This document shows, in pieces, positions 44,138-51,012 of a DNA stretch of 64,000 bases. The position numbers and the translations under genes were made by a program. Source of the stretch: Ruegeria arenilitoris (GTDB lineage Bacteria; Pseudomonadota; Alphaproteobacteria; Rhodobacterales; Rhodobacteraceae); assembly GCF_013031355.1 (NCBI RefSeq), contig NZ_WPZO01000005.1, forward strand, positions 62,001 through 126,000, given 5' to 3'. Each line of letters begins with the position of its first letter. Position 1 is the stretch's first letter. Below the pieces are notes generated by a model, which worked only from the letters and a program-made list of their open reading frames with translations, did not search any database and had not been told where the DNA came from.

Positions 44138-44362
44138 AAAATTCGCGACCTGTTTGTGTTACTCACGGACCAGGGTCCGAAGGCTCAGAATTGACATAGC
44201 CCGAGGAAGAAAGAAATGAAACGTCTGATCCGGGTCGATATGTCAAAGTCCCAAAATCTCGGCACGATGACCTGCAGGGGTTCGCCGAACAGGTCCGATC
44301 CCCCTTCCCCTTGGGGATGCGGCTGGCTAAGAAGTTCCTCCAGACATTTTCAGGAGGCCCCC

Positions 44363-46669
44363 TTGGACCGCATCGCCCGCACCATCGCCACCGAGATCAA
44401 CGCCCGCCCTGAACAGGTGGGGGCAGCGGTGAAACTGCTGGACGAAGGGGCCACCGTCCCCTTTGTCGCCCGCTATCGAAAAGAGGTAACCGGCGGGCTG
44501 GACGATACCCAACTGCGGACCCTATCCGACCGGCTGACCTATTTACGCGAGCTTGAGGCCCGGCGCGAGACTATCTTGGGCTCGATCAAGGATCAGGGTA
44601 AACTGACCGACGATCTGGCCAAATCCATCGCGCAGGCTGATACCAAAGCACAGCTGGAAGACATCTATCTGCCTTACAAACCCAAGCGTCGAACCAAGGC
44701 GATGATCGCGCGGGAAAATGGGCTGGAGCCGTTGGCCGATGCCATTCTGGACGACCGGTCCGCCGATCCCGAAACTCTGGCGCAGGGTTATGTGACCGAG
44801 GCGGTGCCGACCACAAAAGACGCGCTGAACGGCGCGCGGGATATCATCACCGAACGGCTGACCGAAAACGCCACCCTGCTGGGCGAGCTGCGCGATTTCA
44901 TGCAACGCGAGGCTCTGCTGACTTCGAAAGTGATCGACGGCAAGGAACAGGAAGGCGCAAAATTCAGCGACTATTTCGGCCACACCGAGCTTTGGTCGAA
45001 AACCCCGTCGCACCGGGCGTTGGCGATGCTGCGCGCCTCGAAAGAAGGGATCGTAACGCTGGATATCGCGCCGGAACCCGAAGCGGGCGCCGCGCGGGCT
45101 GAGGCCATCGTCGCCGCCCATCTGCACACGCGTGGTGACGGCCCCGCGGATAAGTGGCTGCGCAAAGTGGCCGGGTGGACCTGGCGGGTGAAACTGTCCC
45201 TGTCGATGATGGTTGAGCTGATGGCCGACCTGCGCAGCCGGGCGCAAGACGAAGCTATTCAGGTTTTTTCCCGCAATCTCAAGGACTTGCTGTTTGCCGC
45301 GCCGGCCGGAGCGCGGGCAACCCTGGGTCTGGACCCCGGTATCCGCACCGGTGTCAAAGCAGCCGTTGTTGACGCCACTGGCAAGGTGGTCGCAACGGAC
45401 ACGCTTTACCCGTTTCAGCCAAAGAATGATCTGCGCGGTGCACAGGCCACTATTCTGAACCTGATCGCCGCCCACAAAATCGAATTGATTGCCATCGGTA
45501 ACGGCACCGCCAGCCGCGAAACCGAGAAGATGGTGGCCGACGCGCTGAAGCTGTTGCCCAAAACCGTGAAAACCCCGACCAAGGTGGTTGTCTCCGAAGC
45601 AGGCGCCTCGGTCTATTCCGCTTCAGAACTGGCCGCGCGCGAGTTTCCTGATCTCGATGTGTCGTTGCGCGGAGCCGTGTCAATCGCTCGGCGGCTGCAG
45701 GACCCACTGGCCGAGCTGGTCAAAATCGAACCGAAGTCAATTGGCGTCGGTCAGTATCAGCACGACGTGGATCAGCACCGCCTGTCGCAATCCCTGGCCT
45801 CGGTGATCGAAGACGTGGTGAACGCCGTGGGCGTTGATCTGAATACGGCTTCGGCGCCCCTGCTCTCTCATGTCTCGGGTCTGGGCCCCGGGCTGGCCGA
45901 AGCGATTGTCCTGCATCGCGACCTGAACGGCGCGTTTCAATCGCGCAAGGAGCTGCTGAAAGTGGCCCGCCTTGGCCCCCGGGCTTATGAGCAATGTGCG
46001 GGCTTTTTGCGCATTCGCGACGGCTTGGAACCTTTGGATGCCTCCTCGGTTCACCCCGAAGCCTATGACGTGGCGCGTCGGGTTGTTTCCGCCTGCGAAC
46101 GCGACATCCGGCAGATCATGGGCCATGACGGCGCTTTGAAAGGACTGCGAGCCGAGCAATTCGTCAACGACACGTTCGGCCTGCCGACCGTTCGGGATAT
46201 CTTTGCCGAATTGGAAAAACCCGGCCGCGATCCAAGACCGAGCTTTGTCACCGCCTCATTCACCGATGGCGTTGAAGAGATCACCGATCTGAAACCGGGT
46301 ATGGTGCTGGAAGGTACTGTCACCAACGTCGCCGCCTTTGGTGCCTTCGTGGATATCGGTGTGCATCAGGACGGGCTCGTGCATGTCAGCCAACTGGCGG
46401 ACCGGTTCGTCAAGGACCCGCATGAAGTGGTCAAAACCGGCCAGGTTGTCAAAGTCACAGTGGTTGAAGTGGATGTTCCCCGCAAACGGATCGGCCTGAC
46501 GATGCGCAAGGATGGCGGTGCCTCAGCGCGCGAGGATCGGGCCAACCGTGAACCGAAAAAGAGCTTTGGTCACTCAAAAGCCAAAGGAACACAACGCGCA
46601 AAATCTGACGGTAATGCGCACAACAGTGCATTCGCGGATGCACTTAAGTCGGCGATGAAAGACCGTTGA
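44363..46669 (+). CDS. tex: Transcription accessory protein Tex
   Basis: A 768-residue nucleic-acid-binding protein. Order: Tex N-terminal helical domain, YqgF/RuvC-like domain ([10 protein letters not shown] near 325), helix-hairpin-helix region ([12 protein letters not shown] near 510) and a C-terminal S1 domain ([16 protein letters not shown] near 650) with a basic tail. I assign the start to TTG 44363: AGGAGG lies just upstream and the family begins at this point. An in-frame ATG at 44216 would add 49 residues with no family likeness. It interacts with the transcription machinery. Confidence 0.93.
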
Positions 46670-46707: not shown

Positions 46708-47967
46708 CTAGGTGAATGCGTCGGGTTCAAGTTCTTCCCAAAAATCGAAGATAGCGTTGGCGTTCAGACCCGAACGCCAGCCATGAGCGCGGAAATGCTC
46801 CCGGTCCAAATCATTGTCGAGCCCTGCCAGAAACAGCCGTTTGTCCGCATCCCTCTGAGTGGGGTTTCGCCGCGAAACCAGCTCTTCGACGATGGACAAT
46901 TTGCGGGACCGCTCGGCCCGTTCCGCTGCGCGCGCCGCGTAGGCCTGATCCTCGAGCACCTTTTCGGCCTTGCGCACGCGCGCAGCCTCAACGGCTTCGG
47001 GACTGGGTTCAGCCGGTACTTCTTTTTCCGGCGGCTGGTAGTCGTCCCGCAAAGCCGCGGACAAATAGCCGACCGTGGATTTCACGTCCCCCTGCCCGCT
47101 GACATAATCCAGCTTCTGCTGCACGTAGTCCTCGCCATGCTCTGCGATCCATTGGCGGGCAAGCCGGTCTGACACCCCTTGTTTGCGCAGCGTCTTGTAG
47201 ACCTGCAGGTTGCGAACGCCATCGCTGTCGTCGATCTCGAACATCGCCTTTTGCGGGTTTCCCTTGATCAGAAACCGAATATCGGTGACCGTGCGTCCCT
47301 TTTTCTGAAACTCTGGCTCGATCAAAATGTCCGAGCTTTTGTTCACTTCGGCAACGGCCGGCTTGATGATCTTCGCATTCAGGTGCTTGAAGCTGCTGTA
47401 ATAGTCGCTGCCATCGACCCCCATGAGCTTGCGGAACACATCCAGCGCCCACCATCCCGTCGACCCGGTTCGAACGAAACGGTAGCAATTCTCATAAAGC
47501 GCCAATCCATGGCCCGAGCTGAAGTTCCTTTGGATTTGGACGTTGATCAGCGCATAGATTTTTGGGTCATAGAGTTTCTGCGCCAAGGCCGGAGAATAAG
47601 CGTACTCACAAATCCCGTTCTTCAGCTTGGCAAAACTGAGCAGCGAGGACACACCCCATTCCTGCCGACCCTGTTCGTCCAGCATATCCCACTCTGCGAC
47701 GGTCTCGGCCAGCGCTCGCAAGCTGGCCCGCAGCGTATCGAAATCGTTGGAGTTGTAGCCGACCATCATCGCAAGGGTGCGGGCGTCAATAGTATGTGTC
47801 TGTGCAGAGGTCAGAGCGTCATAGGCATTCAGCAACAGGACATTGGACAGCTTGCGCTGCAACAACGTAAGTTTGCCGCTGATGTGAATCGCGGCGACGT
47901 TTTTCTTGACCGTCTCCCGGCGCAGTGCCCCGGAAAGCTGATCCATATCCAATTGTGTATCCGGCAT
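46708..47967 (-). CDS. Rep_3-superfamily plasmid replication initiator
   Basis: A 419-residue initiator. The first 250 residues fit the two-winged-helix Rep_3 plan of iteron-binding proteins: I-H-I-S-G-K-L-T-L-L-Q-R-K-L-S-N-V-L near the start, M-V-G-Y-N-S-N-D-F-D-T-L-R-A-S-L-R near 70 and W-W-A-L-D-V-F-R-K-L-M-G near 170. A C-terminal extension of about 150 mostly Arg/Glu/Ala-rich residues follows. It should bind the 22-bp iterons in the adjacent intergenic region and melt the AT-rich stretch. It diverges from parAB. A 17-bp parS-like palindrome lies within its coding sequence near the 3' end (46863-46879). Confidence 0.88.
   Translation of the reverse strand: MPDTQLDMDQLSGALRRETVKKNVAAIHISGKLTLLQRKLSNVLLLNAYDALTSAQTHTIDARTLAMMVGYNSNDFDTLRASLRALAETVAEWDMLDEQGRQEWGVSSLLSFAKLKNGICEYAYSPALAQKLYDPKIYALINVQIQRNFSSGHGLALYENCYRFVRTGSTGWWALDVFRKLMGVDGSDYYSSFKHLNAKIIKPAVAEVNKSSDILIEPEFQKKGRTVTDIRFLIKGNPQKAMFEIDDSDGVRNLQVYKTLRKQGVSDRLARQWIAEHGEDYVQQKLDYVSGQGDVKSTVGYLSAALRDDYQPPEKEVPAEPSPEAVEAARVRKAEKVLEDQAYAARAAERAERSRKLSIVEELVSRRNPTQRDADKRLFLAGLDNDLDREHFRAHGWRSGLNANAIFDFWEELEPDAFT
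46863..46879. promoter_or_regulatory. parS-like palindrome inside rep
   Basis: Perfect 17-bp palindrome GGTTTCGCCGCGAAACC in the reading frame of the initiator gene. The 15-bp core GTTTCGCCGCGAAAC is repeated exactly at both ends of parB. It is a likely ParB-binding centromere site. Confidence 0.75.
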
Positions 47968-48031
47968 GATTCTGCCTGGCTGCTCGTTTTCGGTATATCT
48001 GACATGAAAAGTACCTGCGGATCAAATCAAT

Positions 48032-48080
48032 TTGGGTACCCAAATACAGGAATGAAGGAATCCCGTATCTGGGTACCTAG
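48032..48080. promoter_or_regulatory. Inverted iteron-like pair upstream of rep (putative autoregulatory operator)
   Basis: Positions 48061-48080 match the iteron on the plus strand (TCCCGTATCTGGGTACCTAG). Positions 48032-48051 match it on the minus strand. Inverted iteron pairs upstream of Rep_3 genes are known operators at which Rep dimers repress their own gene, so autoregulation is the likely role. Confidence 0.65.
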
Positions 48081-48097
48081 CGTCAAACTCAGGTAAG

Positions 48098-48106
48098 TTA
48101 TCCACA
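48098..48106 (+). promoter_or_regulatory. DnaA box
   Basis: Exact consensus TTATCCACA on the plus strand, between the operator pair and the iterons, as expected for host DnaA assistance at an iteron origin. Confidence 0.8.
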
Positions 48107-48203
48107 GAAACGGTCCATGAATGCGCCTCCAATAGACACTGTCACCTAAATCCACCCACCGAAAGGTCCGGGTTTAGGGTCTAAACTGTCCGAAAATTCA
48201 AAG

Positions 48204-48313
48204 CCCTGCGAATCGGCACCCTTCTTCCCGCAAACCGGAACCTTTGGTCCTGCATGTGGGTTCTTTTGATCCCGGAATCGGGTACCTTTGATCCCGTATT
48301 CAGGTACTGGAAG
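48204..48313 (+). repeat. Five tandem 22-bp iterons
   Basis: Repeat units start at 48204, 48226, 48248, 48270 and 48292, an exact 22-bp period (two helical turns). The best copies share the pattern TCCCG-n(1-2)-A-n(1-2)-C-GGGTACCTTT; for example the unit at 48270 reads TCCCGGAATCGGGTACCTTT. The outer copies are more degenerate. These are the probable binding sites of the initiator. Confidence 0.85.
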
Positions 48314-48317
48314 TACA

Positions 48318-48390
48318 CCTAACTATTGTTTTATAATGATTTTTTTGACTTAAAGATTCTAAAACATCTAAAAATAATAAACTCTTTGTT
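48318..48390. other. AT-rich stretch, probable DNA unwinding element
   Basis: A run of about 73 bases, dominated by A and T with T7 and A5 tracts, directly beside the last iteron and unlike the GC-rich surroundings. The position fits a melting region. Confidence 0.7.
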
Positions 48391-48415
48391 GGCCTGTGTG
48401 CTCTCTTTTCTTTTA

Positions 48416-48430
48416 GTTTCGTGGCGAAAC
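48416..48430. promoter_or_regulatory. parS-like palindrome variant upstream of parA
   Basis: GTTTCGTGGCGAAAC has the same GTTTCG/CGAAAC arms and 15-bp length as the three sites in rep and parB, with a different 3-base centre. Confidence 0.6.
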
Positions 48431-48488
48431 CGAGCACCAAGACCATATTCTGTGGAAAACTCCCTTTCAGAGGATAGCCTCAGCGCAA

Positions 48489-48532
48489 AATGTTCGCTAT
48501 GTTGGGCAATATACGCCGGTAAGGCGAACATT
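48489..48532. promoter_or_regulatory. Inverted repeat at the parA promoter
   Basis: Perfect 9-bp arms AATGTTCGC and GCGAACATT separated by 26 bases, ending 16 bases before the parA GTG. It is a candidate operator for ParA-mediated autorepression of parAB. Confidence 0.55.
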
Positions 48533-48548
48533 ATCTGAGGCATCGACA

Positions 48549-49934
48549 GTGAATAAATCTACCCAACCTCCTCTGCCGCCCTATTTGAACCTGGACCCCG
48601 AGCTTGCAGCGGAGAAGCTGCCTGATCCTATCGGGACCTCTCGATTCGCAAAAGCGGCTACGTTCTGTGCCAAGGGACGCGAAGATCTGGCCCGTCGGGG
48701 ATATGCCCCGGATGGTGAGAAAAGATTGCGCCGGTTCTCGATTTGGGAAATCACCAAATACCTGATCCCAGTGGCTCCCGCTCATTTGCGCCGGGTTCTG
48801 AAGGCAAACCCGGATCTGCCCCAGGGTGAAGGCGAGGCTGGTTCGAAATGGTTCACGCTGGAAGAAGTTCTCACACTCAGGCAGCATTTCGCCGCGGAAG
48901 GCGTCAGCACTAAGGAATACTTGCCGTACCGACCAGAAGGGTTGCCTGCTAAAGTCGTGGCGGTTGCCAACTTCAAAGGCGGTGTCGGCAAAACCTCGAC
49001 CGCTGCGCATCTGGCCATGTCTGCTGCGTTGGACGGGTATAAAGTACTGGTCATCGACCTGGACAGTCAGGGATCGATGACCTCCATTCTGGGTGGAAAT
49101 GTTGCGGATGAATGGCAAACGGTATTTCCGCTGATTGCCAAAGATTACGCTCGTGCCGTGCAGGAGGAAAACAGGGTTAGGGATGCTGCGGGTCAGCCTG
49201 AAATTCCCCTGGATGAGACCCTGCAAGAGGCGCTGAATACCCTGCCCCGCGATGTCATTCAAAAGACGCACTGGCCCAATATCGATCTGATAGGCGCTCA
49301 GCTGAACCTTTATTGGGCCGAGTTTCAGATCCCGGTCTGGCGTATGGGGCTGCGCAGCTGGCCGCTTTGGGACGGCTTGACCAACTTCCTGCATGATGAA
49401 GGCGTTCTTAACGATTATGACATCGTATTCCTGGATACGCCTCCTGCACTTGGGTACCTAACGATCAACGCGCTGGCTGCTGCTGACATTTTGTTGGTCC
49501 CCCTCGGCGCGTCATTCCTTGAGTTCGACTCGACGGGTCGGTTCTTCGACATGCTCTACACGACTTTCGCAAGCATTGAGGATGGTGAGAACGCGGCCCA
49601 GCGGGCGGCGGGTTTACCTGAACTTAAGTTTGAATGGGATGTAGTGCGGGCGATCATCACCCGCTTCGATGCCAGCCAACAGACGGATATGGCCAACGTT
49701 ATCCAGGCCTATTTCGGGGATTTCATGAACGCATACAGGCAGGACTATACGGCGTTGGTCGGGCAGGCTGGGGAACAGGTGAACGGCATCTATGAGGCCG
49801 ATTACAGGGATTTCAACCGGGACACATACGTAAGAGGTCGGGAAACGTTTGACCGCACCTATGCCGAATTCAAACAGGTTCTGATCGGCTGCTGGTGGCG
49901 TGACGCTCAGATGGGAGGAGAAGCAGATGGCTAA
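48549..49934 (+). CDS. parA: Plasmid partition ATPase ParA (type Ia, with N-terminal DNA-binding region)
   Basis: A 461-residue ATPase that drives segregation of the replicon. The first 130 residues carry an MerR/HTH-like region (S-I-W-E-I-T-K-Y near 60), which in this class represses the par operon. The deviant Walker A N-F-K-G-G-V-G-K-T-S is near 145, A' motif V-I-D-L-D-S-Q-G near 172 and Walker B-like V-F-L-D-T-P-P-A-L-G-Y near 296. The start is GTG at 48549 with TGAGG upstream. The stop overlaps the parB start (ATGGCTAA). Confidence 0.92.
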   Translation: MNKSTQPPLPPYLNLDPELAAEKLPDPIGTSRFAKAATFCAKGREDLARRGYAPDGEKRLRRFSIWEITKYLIPVAPAHLRRVLKANPDLPQGEGEAGSKWFTLEEVLTLRQHFAAEGVSTKEYLPYRPEGLPAKVVAVANFKGGVGKTSTAAHLAMSAALDGYKVLVIDLDSQGSMTSILGGNVADEWQTVFPLIAKDYARAVQEENRVRDAAGQPEIPLDETLQEALNTLPRDVIQKTHWPNIDLIGAQLNLYWAEFQIPVWRMGLRSWPLWDGLTNFLHDEGVLNDYDIVFLDTPPALGYLTINALAAADILLVPLGASFLEFDSTGRFFDMLYTTFASIEDGENAAQRAAGLPELKFEWDVVRAIITRFDASQQTDMANVIQAYFGDFMNAYRQDYTALVGQAGEQVNGIYEADYRDFNRDTYVRGRETFDRTYAEFKQVLIGCWWRDAQMGGEADG

Positions 49935-51012
49935 GCGCAGAAGATTGACCGCTCCGGATACTGCGGAACTGGAACAGCTTGAGGCCGGTTTCGCCGCGAA
50001 ACCGTCAATTAGCCCGTTTGAGACCATATCCTCAACGCCCCCGATTGCTCAGGTTGCGGCTGAGGCAGCGACTTTGAATGGCATGACCGCCGTCACGGAT
50101 CGTCTGGCCCTGGCGCAGGATCAGGGGGATGCGGCACGGTGGCGCGATGCTCAAGACGCAGGGTTGGTGGCGGAAATGCTGCCATTGGATCAAATCGACG
50201 CAGACTTCATTCGCCGCGACCGGATGGTCGAAGACGAAGATGCCATGGCCGAACTGCTCGAGTCGCTGCGCGTCCACGGTCTGCGTACTCCGATCGAGGT
50301 AACGCGGGATGGGGACAGTTACGGGCTGATCTCGGGATTCCGACGTCTGAACGCCTTTCGGCGTCTTGCGGACACGGATCCGCGTTTTGCTGAAATCCCG
50401 GCCTTCATCCGCGAGGCGGGATCGGGGCAGGGTGCCTATGTGTCCATGGTCGAGGAAAACGAGCTCAGGTCAAACCTCAGCCCTTATGAACGCGGTCGCA
50501 TTGCGGTGCTGGCTGCAGGGCAGGGGGTGTTTGCGTCGACCGAAGCCGCTGTCGATGTCCTGTTTGCAGCGGCCTCCAAGGCAAAACGATCCAAGGTTCG
50601 CAGCTTTGCGATGGTGCACGAAGCGTTGGGTGACCTGTTGCAACATCCCGTTGCTTTGTCCGAGAAGTCTGGCTTGAAACTGGCCTCGGCACTGCGGGAC
50701 GGTGCGCAGACCAAACTGCGTCAGGCTCTGGCCGGGGTAGGGGAGCTGGATCCGAAATCGGAGTGGGCTTTGCTGGAGGACGCCTTGAAAACGTCACCCG
50801 CACCGTCAAAGGACAAGGCGCGCGGGGGGCGTCCACAGCAGGTTCAGCGGTTGCCGACTGTCGCCCTGCCTGGGGGAGGCGATATCATGGCCGAAGTTTC
50901 CGCCGGAGAGCTGCGCATTCGTGTTCGTGGGAAAGAGGTCTCTGCCGAGGACGCACAGGATATCGTAGGGAAACTTGCCGAATATCTCGGTGAGTTTCGC
51001 CGCGAAACCTGA
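49927..51012 (+). CDS. parB: Partition protein ParB
   Basis: A 361-residue centromere-binding protein. An N-terminal ParA-contact segment, a CTPase/ParB domain (R-R-D-R-M near 100, G-L-R-T-P-I-E-V near 120, G-F-R-R-L-N-A-F near 140 and V-E-E-N-E-L-R-S-N-L-S-P-Y-E-R-G near 180), an HTH region and a C-terminal dimerisation part are seen. The ATG at 49927 overlaps the parA stop. Both ends of the gene contain a parS-like palindrome in frame, encoding G-F-A-A-K-P near residue 22 and F-R-R-E-T at the C-terminus. Confidence 0.92.
   Translation: MAKRRRLTAPDTAELEQLEAGFAAKPSISPFETISSTPPIAQVAAEAATLNGMTAVTDRLALAQDQGDAARWRDAQDAGLVAEMLPLDQIDADFIRRDRMVEDEDAMAELLESLRVHGLRTPIEVTRDGDSYGLISGFRRLNAFRRLADTDPRFAEIPAFIREAGSGQGAYVSMVEENELRSNLSPYERGRIAVLAAGQGVFASTEAAVDVLFAAASKAKRSKVRSFAMVHEALGDLLQHPVALSEKSGLKLASALRDGAQTKLRQALAGVGELDPKSEWALLEDALKTSPAPSKDKARGGRPQQVQRLPTVALPGGGDIMAEVSAGELRIRVRGKEVSAEDAQDIVGKLAEYLGEFRRET
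49986..50004. promoter_or_regulatory. parS-like palindrome at the 5' end of parB
   Basis: Perfect 19-bp palindrome CGGTTTCGCCGCGAAACCG within parB codons 20-26. Contains the exact 15-bp core found in rep and at the parB 3' end. Confidence 0.78.
50994..51008. promoter_or_regulatory. parS-like palindrome at the 3' end of parB
   Basis: Exact 15-bp core GTTTCGCCGCGAAAC ending 4 bases before the last base of the parB stop codon. Confidence 0.75.

Follow-up and report, generated by a model that had tools for sequence, protein, structure and literature searches.

Why should one short palindrome be written into the coding sequence of both the initiator gene and the partition gene of a bacterial replicon? 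The question is posed by a 64,000-nt stretch of a Ruegeria arenilitoris genome (contig NZ_WPZO01000005.1; hereafter the window), in which a replication and partition module of rep, parA and parB holds three exact copies of GTTTCGCCGCGAAAC and one variant, GTTTCGTGGCGAAAC. These palindromes are very probably parS, the predicted, centromere-like loading sites of ParB on a RepB-type (Rep3) replicon. In related modules they recur at the same places, are conserved as DNA, and come in two forms that differ in the distance between their half-sites, GTTTCGC and GCGAAAC.

A search of the window recovered the three exact positions given in the initial annotation and the variant at 48416, which differs from GTTTCGCCGCGAAAC at two positions on the plus strand and at one on the minus strand. 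One parB copy does extend to a perfect 19-bp palindrome, as had been stated, but it touches codons 21-26, not 20-26. The judgment that such clustering is far from chance also holds: given the base composition of the window, the 14 arm bases are expected 0.0003 times in 64 kb, and the 12 matches to GTTTCGCCGCGAAAC with up to three mismatches on both strands exceed all of 100 shuffles (mean 3.34, largest 10). The search was extended to the whole genome (4,912,483 bases in 31 contigs), where 0.021 chance occurrences of the arms are expected. Many scattered copies would, by the initial annotation, have refuted the idea; only three exact copies of the 15-mer were found, all within the module, and GTTTCGC and GCGAAAC separated by zero to four bases occur at no further place in this genome. 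The flanks of the copies diverge beyond a base or two. As in ParABS systems, palindromic cis sites are thus clustered at the par genes and rare elsewhere; a gene for a ParA-type Walker ATPase adjoins parB, and ParB has a ParB_N (CTPase) domain and a helix-turn-helix (HTH) DNA-binding domain (PF02195; structure-model matches).

The three exact copies are read in three frames, as TCG CGG CGA AAC in rep, GGT TTC GCC GCG AAA CCG near the 5' end of parB and GAG TTT CGC CGC GAA ACC TGA at its 3' end, so protein conservation cannot account for their identity. Related modules allow this point to be generalized. ParB relatives at E 1e-40 or better occur at 136 places in 107 of the 295 genomes of the family; with one more stretch from genome G203 (L198) and six PLSDB records, they make up 143 loci (1.42 Mb), including the window's own locus (L051) and one plasmid present twice (L047, L053). 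The RepB (Rep3) set comprises 58 loci, six of which were assigned by ParB similarity, their rep not being on the fetched stretch, and one of which (L192) is a far outlier. Two loci outside this set, checked by Pfam, carry an RPA-type initiator (PF10134) and are of RepA type, as we assume most of the remainder to be. Unless called exact, a site may deviate from the 14 arm bases at no more than one position.

Across these loci, the site near the 5' end of parB is read in three registers, giving GFAAKP-like and EFRRET-like peptides in 20 loci each and GFARET-like ones in eight. Codon choice was then compared between palindrome and gene as the pairwise codon identity of kept residues, a usable test because loci were picked by peptide (20, 21, 12 and 25 loci) and not by motif; the pairs share ancestry, equally on both sides of the comparison. 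Codons are kept in 569 of 685 cases for parB frame 1 (0.44 in the rest of the gene), 689/727 for parB frame 2 (0.43), 253/264 for rep (0.47) and 876/900 for parA (0.48). In the 12 rep sites encoding VSRRNP, the S and N codons agree in 66/66 pairs and those of R in 121/132, and the only low residue of the test is the alanine of frame 1 (179/295), which bears the free central base. The same DNA in three registers, with codon identity far above that of the rest of the gene, means that selection acts on the DNA, in rep, parA and parB alike. A conservation profile anchored on the parB site was set aside as evidence, since its sites had been picked by motif.

The places of the sites are conserved as well. 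The RepB set has five recurrent ones: the 3' part of rep, upstream of parA, within parA about 690 bp before parB, at parB +61/62, and around the end of parB. Among the 55 loci of this set called to a spacer class, a site is found in rep in 16 (some stretches do not include rep), upstream of parA in 32 (a residual class for sites outside the genes, most of them about 1.5 kb before the parB start), in parA in 26 and at the parB 5' end in 48; two have one lying entirely within the 3' end of parB, and 28 have one beyond parB, at most 1.6 kb away. The site at parB codons ~21-26 is present in 48/58 RepB loci, against 4/525 control windows of 80 nt elsewhere in parB, and two of the ten loci counted as lacking it (L081, L096) have it at more mismatches. 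The RepB set has exact sites in rep (16), parB (44) and parA (18) and a further 48 elsewhere; the corresponding figures for the other 85 loci are 13 within the three genes and 103 elsewhere. In the window, the in-parA site common in relatives (VSPRNL) is absent at ~49237-49251, where the peptide, judged by position and eye, is TLPRDV.

The claims of the initial annotation can be weighed against this record. The parS-like nature of the sites gains support from their confinement to the module in their own genome and from the retention of places and palindrome in relatives. Their embedding in codons is likewise borne out, and the alignment of homologues suggested as a check finds the palindrome retained as codons change, most clearly at the parB 5' end, and does not refute the claim. 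The idea that ParB loads at both ends of its own gene fares worse: across the 55 loci only two sites lie wholly in the end of the parB open reading frame (ORF), against 35 between the stop codon and 1.6 kb downstream. A site between 25 bp before and 250 bp after the parB end occurs in 29/58 RepB loci, and none is found there in the closest named relative, Ruegeria sp. B32 (L045). In relatives the parB 3' copy mostly lies outside the gene, and in the window the ORF has probably come to include it; many close relatives have a ParB of 355 residues, compared with 361 in the window.

Several loci show arrangements of their own. In L081, the four sites (3027, 5408, 6167, 7203) all deviate at the same arm base (GTTTCGT-S-ACGAAAC), which may be yet another specificity. 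Spacer-1 sites stand in groups of three or four, ~35-115 bp apart, after parB in L159 and also in L256 and L301 (Leisingera), and L163 has five spacer-2 sites exactly 41 bp apart (parB +1248 to +1412), three of them with one mismatch. More widely, the spacer-1 motif centred on C or G is present in 49 of the 295 family genomes. A scan of GTDB contigs for the spacer-1 motif returned at least 118 stretches; among the 80 listed in full, all 14 with two or more copies are, by their titles, from Rhodobacterales, and single copies are dispersed over many phyla.

How the parB 5' site came to lie inside a gene is suggested by the junction of parA and parB. The gap between them has a median of -8 bp in the RepB set (58 loci; range -23 to 14) and of 65.5 bp in the 76 other loci counted, where the genes are mostly apart. 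Sites fall within this gap in 0/58 RepB loci and 31/76 others, and at the parB 5' end in 48/58 and 3/76, respectively; two of those three (L053, L198) are suspected to be RepB-type loci missed from the set. In our reading, the in-gene site held its position while the gap closed over it. In the ParB model (mean predicted local distance difference test [pLDDT] 73, predicted template modelling score 0.42), residues 21-42 have pLDDT below 50; the in-gene RepB-type site lies before the CTPase domain in a linker that is probably disordered, a stretch in which ParB may tolerate imposed peptides. As for the suggestion that the sites constrain the initiator and ParB, their placement in codons is borne out, but the parB 5' site does less to constrain an important part of ParB than to occupy this low-confidence stretch. 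Noc, ParB and KorB supply the best matches of the model, which resembles Noc 7nfu and, over 82-292, 6t1f and, less closely, SopB-DNA (3mkz, over 183-290).

Table 1. Features of the replication and partition module, in window coordinates
Feature	Position	Strand	Description
rep	46708..47967	-	Rep3-type (RepB) replication initiator, 419 aa; PF01051 4.1e-19, PF21205 4.9e-16
Predicted parS copy R, exact GTTTCGCCGCGAAAC	46864..46878	.	inside 3' part of rep, read VSRRNP on minus strand; 17-bp palindrome
DnaA-box-like TTATCCACA	48098..48106	+	between rep and parA
Putative oriV iterons, 22-bp spacing	48247, 48269, 48291 (48247..48309)	.	related copy at 48060 (48060-48078)
Predicted parS copy U, variant GTTTCGTGGCGAAAC	48416..48430	.	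intergenic, upstream of parA
DnaA-box-like, inverted TGTGGAAAA	48451-48459		between rep and parA
parA	48549..49934	+	partition ATPase, 461 aa; PF13614 4.3e-30
parB	49927..51012	+	361 aa; PF02195 5.4e-07; 8-bp overlap with parA; fold matches Noc, ParB, KorB
Predicted parS copy B5, exact GTTTCGCCGCGAAAC	49988..50002	.	parB codons 21-26 (GFAAKP); perfect 19-bp palindrome 49986-50004
Predicted parS copy B3, exact GTTTCGCCGCGAAAC	50994..51008	.	last parB codons (EFRRET, then stop); 15-bp palindrome

The module itself is of a recognizable type (Table 1). As in RepB-type (Rep3) replicons of Rhodobacterales, a Rep3 initiator diverges from a tight parA-parB pair; the arrangement of repABC plasmids, with a RepC initiator in one operon with repAB, is not that of the window, and its sites are not the 16-bp TGTTTCACGTGAAACA of the chromosomal parS family. 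Against models of partition RepA/SopA, parA scores below the model cut-offs. The iteron-like repeats adjoin an AT-rich stretch and are likely oriV, with palindromes on both sides; TTATCCACA and TGTGGAAAA resemble the DnaA-box consensus. Among named ParBs, the nearest belong to Ruegeria, at 94% identity; that of the Ruegeria sp. B32 plasmid is 78% identical. The gene next to rep in the window (44216-46669) is of the Tex family and is shared with the B32 plasmid (L045 303-2744); the window's replicon may be chromid-like.

Other explanations of the palindromes can be set against this record. The one that survives best, although we consider it improbable, makes them operators or initiation sites for Rep or for the N-terminal region of ParA. 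A copy upstream of parA, another in rep and the position of the group around the iteron region speak for such a role. However, the same half-sites accompany the unrelated RPA initiator in other modules, which means that Rep is not what these modules have in common; in loci outside the RepB clade, sites are placed between parA and parB in 31 of 76 and, in many, at the parB end; and the window's iterons have another sequence. Because it is ParAB, and not the initiator, that the sites accompany, because the ParB model resembles Noc, ParB and KorB, and because GTTTC is a half-site of chromosomal parS, we infer that ParB is the reader and that the sites serve partition.

Less likely still is a mobile repeat or recombination (resolution) site spread through the module. 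Several identical copies lie within 4 kb, their inverted repeats resemble recombinase sites, and an integrase gene adjoins parB in one of six annotated relatives (the TM1040 megaplasmid). Yet the differing flanks, the homologous places in divergent modules and the lack of any further exact copy in the own genome speak against it, and no recombinase is listed in the remaining five annotated stretches. That the codon usage or conserved peptides of a GC-rich genome produced the palindromes by coincidence is scarcely credible, for while the motif can be read as ordinary codons, the arms are far rarer by chance than observed, three registers with different peptides occupy one place, and codon identity is far above that of the rest of the genes. 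An RNA hairpin or terminator was rejected from the sequence, as a 7-bp stem with a loop of 1-2 nt cannot close.

The palindromes also come in a second form. Many loci without the 15-mer hold a 16-mer with identical arms at identical places. Exact arms over the 1.42 Mb are separated by 1 bp in 119 cases and by 2 bp in 132, and never by 0 or 3-7 bp; at up to one mismatch the counts are 177, 146 and, for other spacers, five. By locus, 49 have spacer 1 only, 60 spacer 2 only, 16 both and 18 none. A module nearly always keeps to one spacing throughout: of 38 modules with a single class on each side, 37 have the same class for in-gene and intergenic sites, while five more hold both classes and in 15 one or both sides have no site. 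In the RepB set, spacer-1 and spacer-2 sites number 17 and 0 in rep and 27 and 0 in parA, and eight spacer-2 sites lie at the parB 5' end. The central bases follow the same rule. Within a locus, the strong/weak class of the spacer-1 base is alike in 87/93 pairs (2000 shuffles: mean 64, highest 78) and the spacer-2 dinucleotide in 53/73 (mean 31, highest 49).

The class has also changed repeatedly. On a quick tree of 139 ParBs, which leaves out the duplicate L053 and the short L076, L197 and L198 and in which 57 of 136 inner branches have below 80% support, at least eight changes are needed overall and at least six within the RepB set; starred branches alone give six independent pairs differing in class, four of them in the RepB set. 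For example, a spacer-1 group (L141, L159, L176) is nested within a mostly spacer-2 clade. Some modules seem to be in the course of such a change (L089, L094, L297, L084, L092). In L297, exact sites with a 2-bp spacer stand upstream of parA and at the end of parB, while the parB 5' end holds an exact 1-bp copy; L084 and L092, called spacer 2, have a spacer-1 form at that 5' end, with one and three mismatches. Both classes also meet in one strain, Phaeobacter inhibens DSM 17395. Over the whole record of pPGA1_78 (RepB-I; its ParB is 57% identical to that of the window), the spacer-1 form occurs exactly once, in rep, and with one mismatch upstream of parA, within parA, within parB and at one place elsewhere (21350), and there is no spacer-2 site. 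The whole record of pPGA1_65, the counterpart of a RepA-I plasmid, contains the spacer-2 form at two places, exact in both, and lacks the spacer-1 form.

These patterns suggest, with a confidence that stops somewhat short of even, that half-site spacing is a specificity switch. Within one ParB family the arms would stay fixed, the spacer would toggle between 1 and 2 bp, and the central bases would add a finer code, together making new compatibility groups; frame-locked in-gene copies would slide one half-site (GFAAKP, GFARET, EFRRET) or decay as fossils of former specificities. Several observations weigh against this proposal or against the parS assignment itself. No site at up to one mismatch is found in the 18 loci without a class (e.g., L149, L156, L185 and L189; L081, and perhaps L096, is a variant). 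Both spacings occur in 16 loci, and some modules mix exact copies of each (L089, L094, L164, L171, L297), so one ParB may tolerate both. Co-residence, a candidate line of support for spacing-based compatibility, gave no signal: of 17 genomes that house both a RepB- and a RepA-type module, 14 show different spacers in the two, against a permutation mean of 14.2, in a count that left out G200 (its duplicate L053 was wrongly classed as other) and becomes 15/18 with G200 added by hand. ParB residue 247, which is K in 32/44 spacer-1 modules and R in 11/11 spacer-2 modules of the RepB clade, was rejected as a spacing code, as the pattern is absent in the other clade and four independent pairs on starred branches give a mean of 1.5 for, 0 against and 2.5 without difference, which is not significant.

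Residue 247 was matched by eye to C. crescentus position 201 (PMC7383237, excerpt), the five alignments to solved ParB/Noc chains ending at residue 188. The three genomes whose two modules share a spacer (G067, G107, G270) differ in the central bases, a post hoc observation. The notion of the spacer-2 form as a necessary middle between two spacer-1 registers is not favoured by parsimony: its cost of 3 equals the unordered cost, and placing frame 1 in the middle costs 3 as well.

On the parS reading, a ParB dimer would contact the two inverted half-sites with its HTH domains. Loading as a CTP-dependent clamp, predicted from the fold, would let ParB spread across the origin region before being moved by ParA. 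Spacing may determine specificity. A change of spacing would require in-gene copies to be re-made in another register or to decay; such copies are hard to change because one base added or lost shifts the frame. The origin of new partition specificities and compatibility groups is a long-standing question, and a change of spacing may be the way in which new types of plasmid, compatible with one another, come about. In the present family, half-sites are near-constant while their distance changes repeatedly; mixed and decaying intermediates are seen, and both spacer classes reside in one cultured strain. The family gives centromere predictions for RepB-type and RepA-type plasmids of Rhodobacterales and a clean example of one DNA element retained in several frames of one gene.

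A parS within a gene is familiar from Bacillus subtilis, where one lies within spo0J. In repABC plasmids, such sites are reported at the 5' end of repB in Rhizobiales and in ORFs downstream of repC in Rhodobacterales (PMC9040568, excerpt), so the in-gene placement that the initial annotation set apart from most parS clusters has precedents. The repABC sites of both orders also resemble those of the window in being palindromes at rep and par genes, some in ORFs, and repABC compatibility groups are distinguished by palindrome, with one reciprocal base in RepABC-1 and -2; their initiator is RepC, however, the sequences are other, and the reported difference is in base rather than spacing (PMC9040568, PMC5613091, excerpts). 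Chromosomal ParB-parS systems share inverted GTTTC half-sites and a ParB with CTPase and HTH domains, but their site TGTTTCACGTGAAACA (PMC5450999, excerpt) has the half-site GTTTCAC without a spacer, in contrast to GTTTCGC with a spacer of 1 or 2 bp. Two copies of TGTTTCACGTGAAACA lie on another contig (C26) of the same genome than the window (C27:62001-126000), so both kinds of site co-occur.

Related ParBs with related short palindromes on co-resident replicons are also known from the Bsr parS of Burkholderiales secondary replicons, although these are 16-bp palindromes with a central CG and no 15/16-bp spacing classes are described in the available text (PMC5450999, excerpt). The RK2 KorB operator, TTTAGC(C/G)GCTAAA, is likewise a palindrome of odd length whose GCSGC core leaves one C/G free, and KorB is among the fold matches of the window's ParB; it differs in its arms and in that KorB also represses many promoters, with no spacing variants described in the portion available (PMC2680271, excerpt). 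The Phaeobacter plasmids pGal_D78 and pGal_F69 and their P. inhibens counterparts are of the same replicon types (RepB-I and RepA-I); pGal_D78 of P. gallaeciensis, counterpart of pPGA1_78, is typed RepB-I, and the available part of that paper gives no parS for either type (PMC4148982, excerpt). Among the literature matches listed for the site strings, only the 7-mer occurs and none of the longer strings, and a search for wording on in-gene parS gave no match. Within the literature searched, mostly open-access and partly as excerpts, we found no precedent for constant half-sites with two spacings in one ParB family or for one centromere in three registers of the same gene, and no earlier centromere prediction for RepB- or RepA-type plasmids of Rhodobacterales. 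In-gene parS and palindrome-defined compatibility groups are known already (PMC9040568, PMC5613091, excerpts); compared with the in-gene sites first noticed in the window, we rank the two spacer classes as the more novel part.
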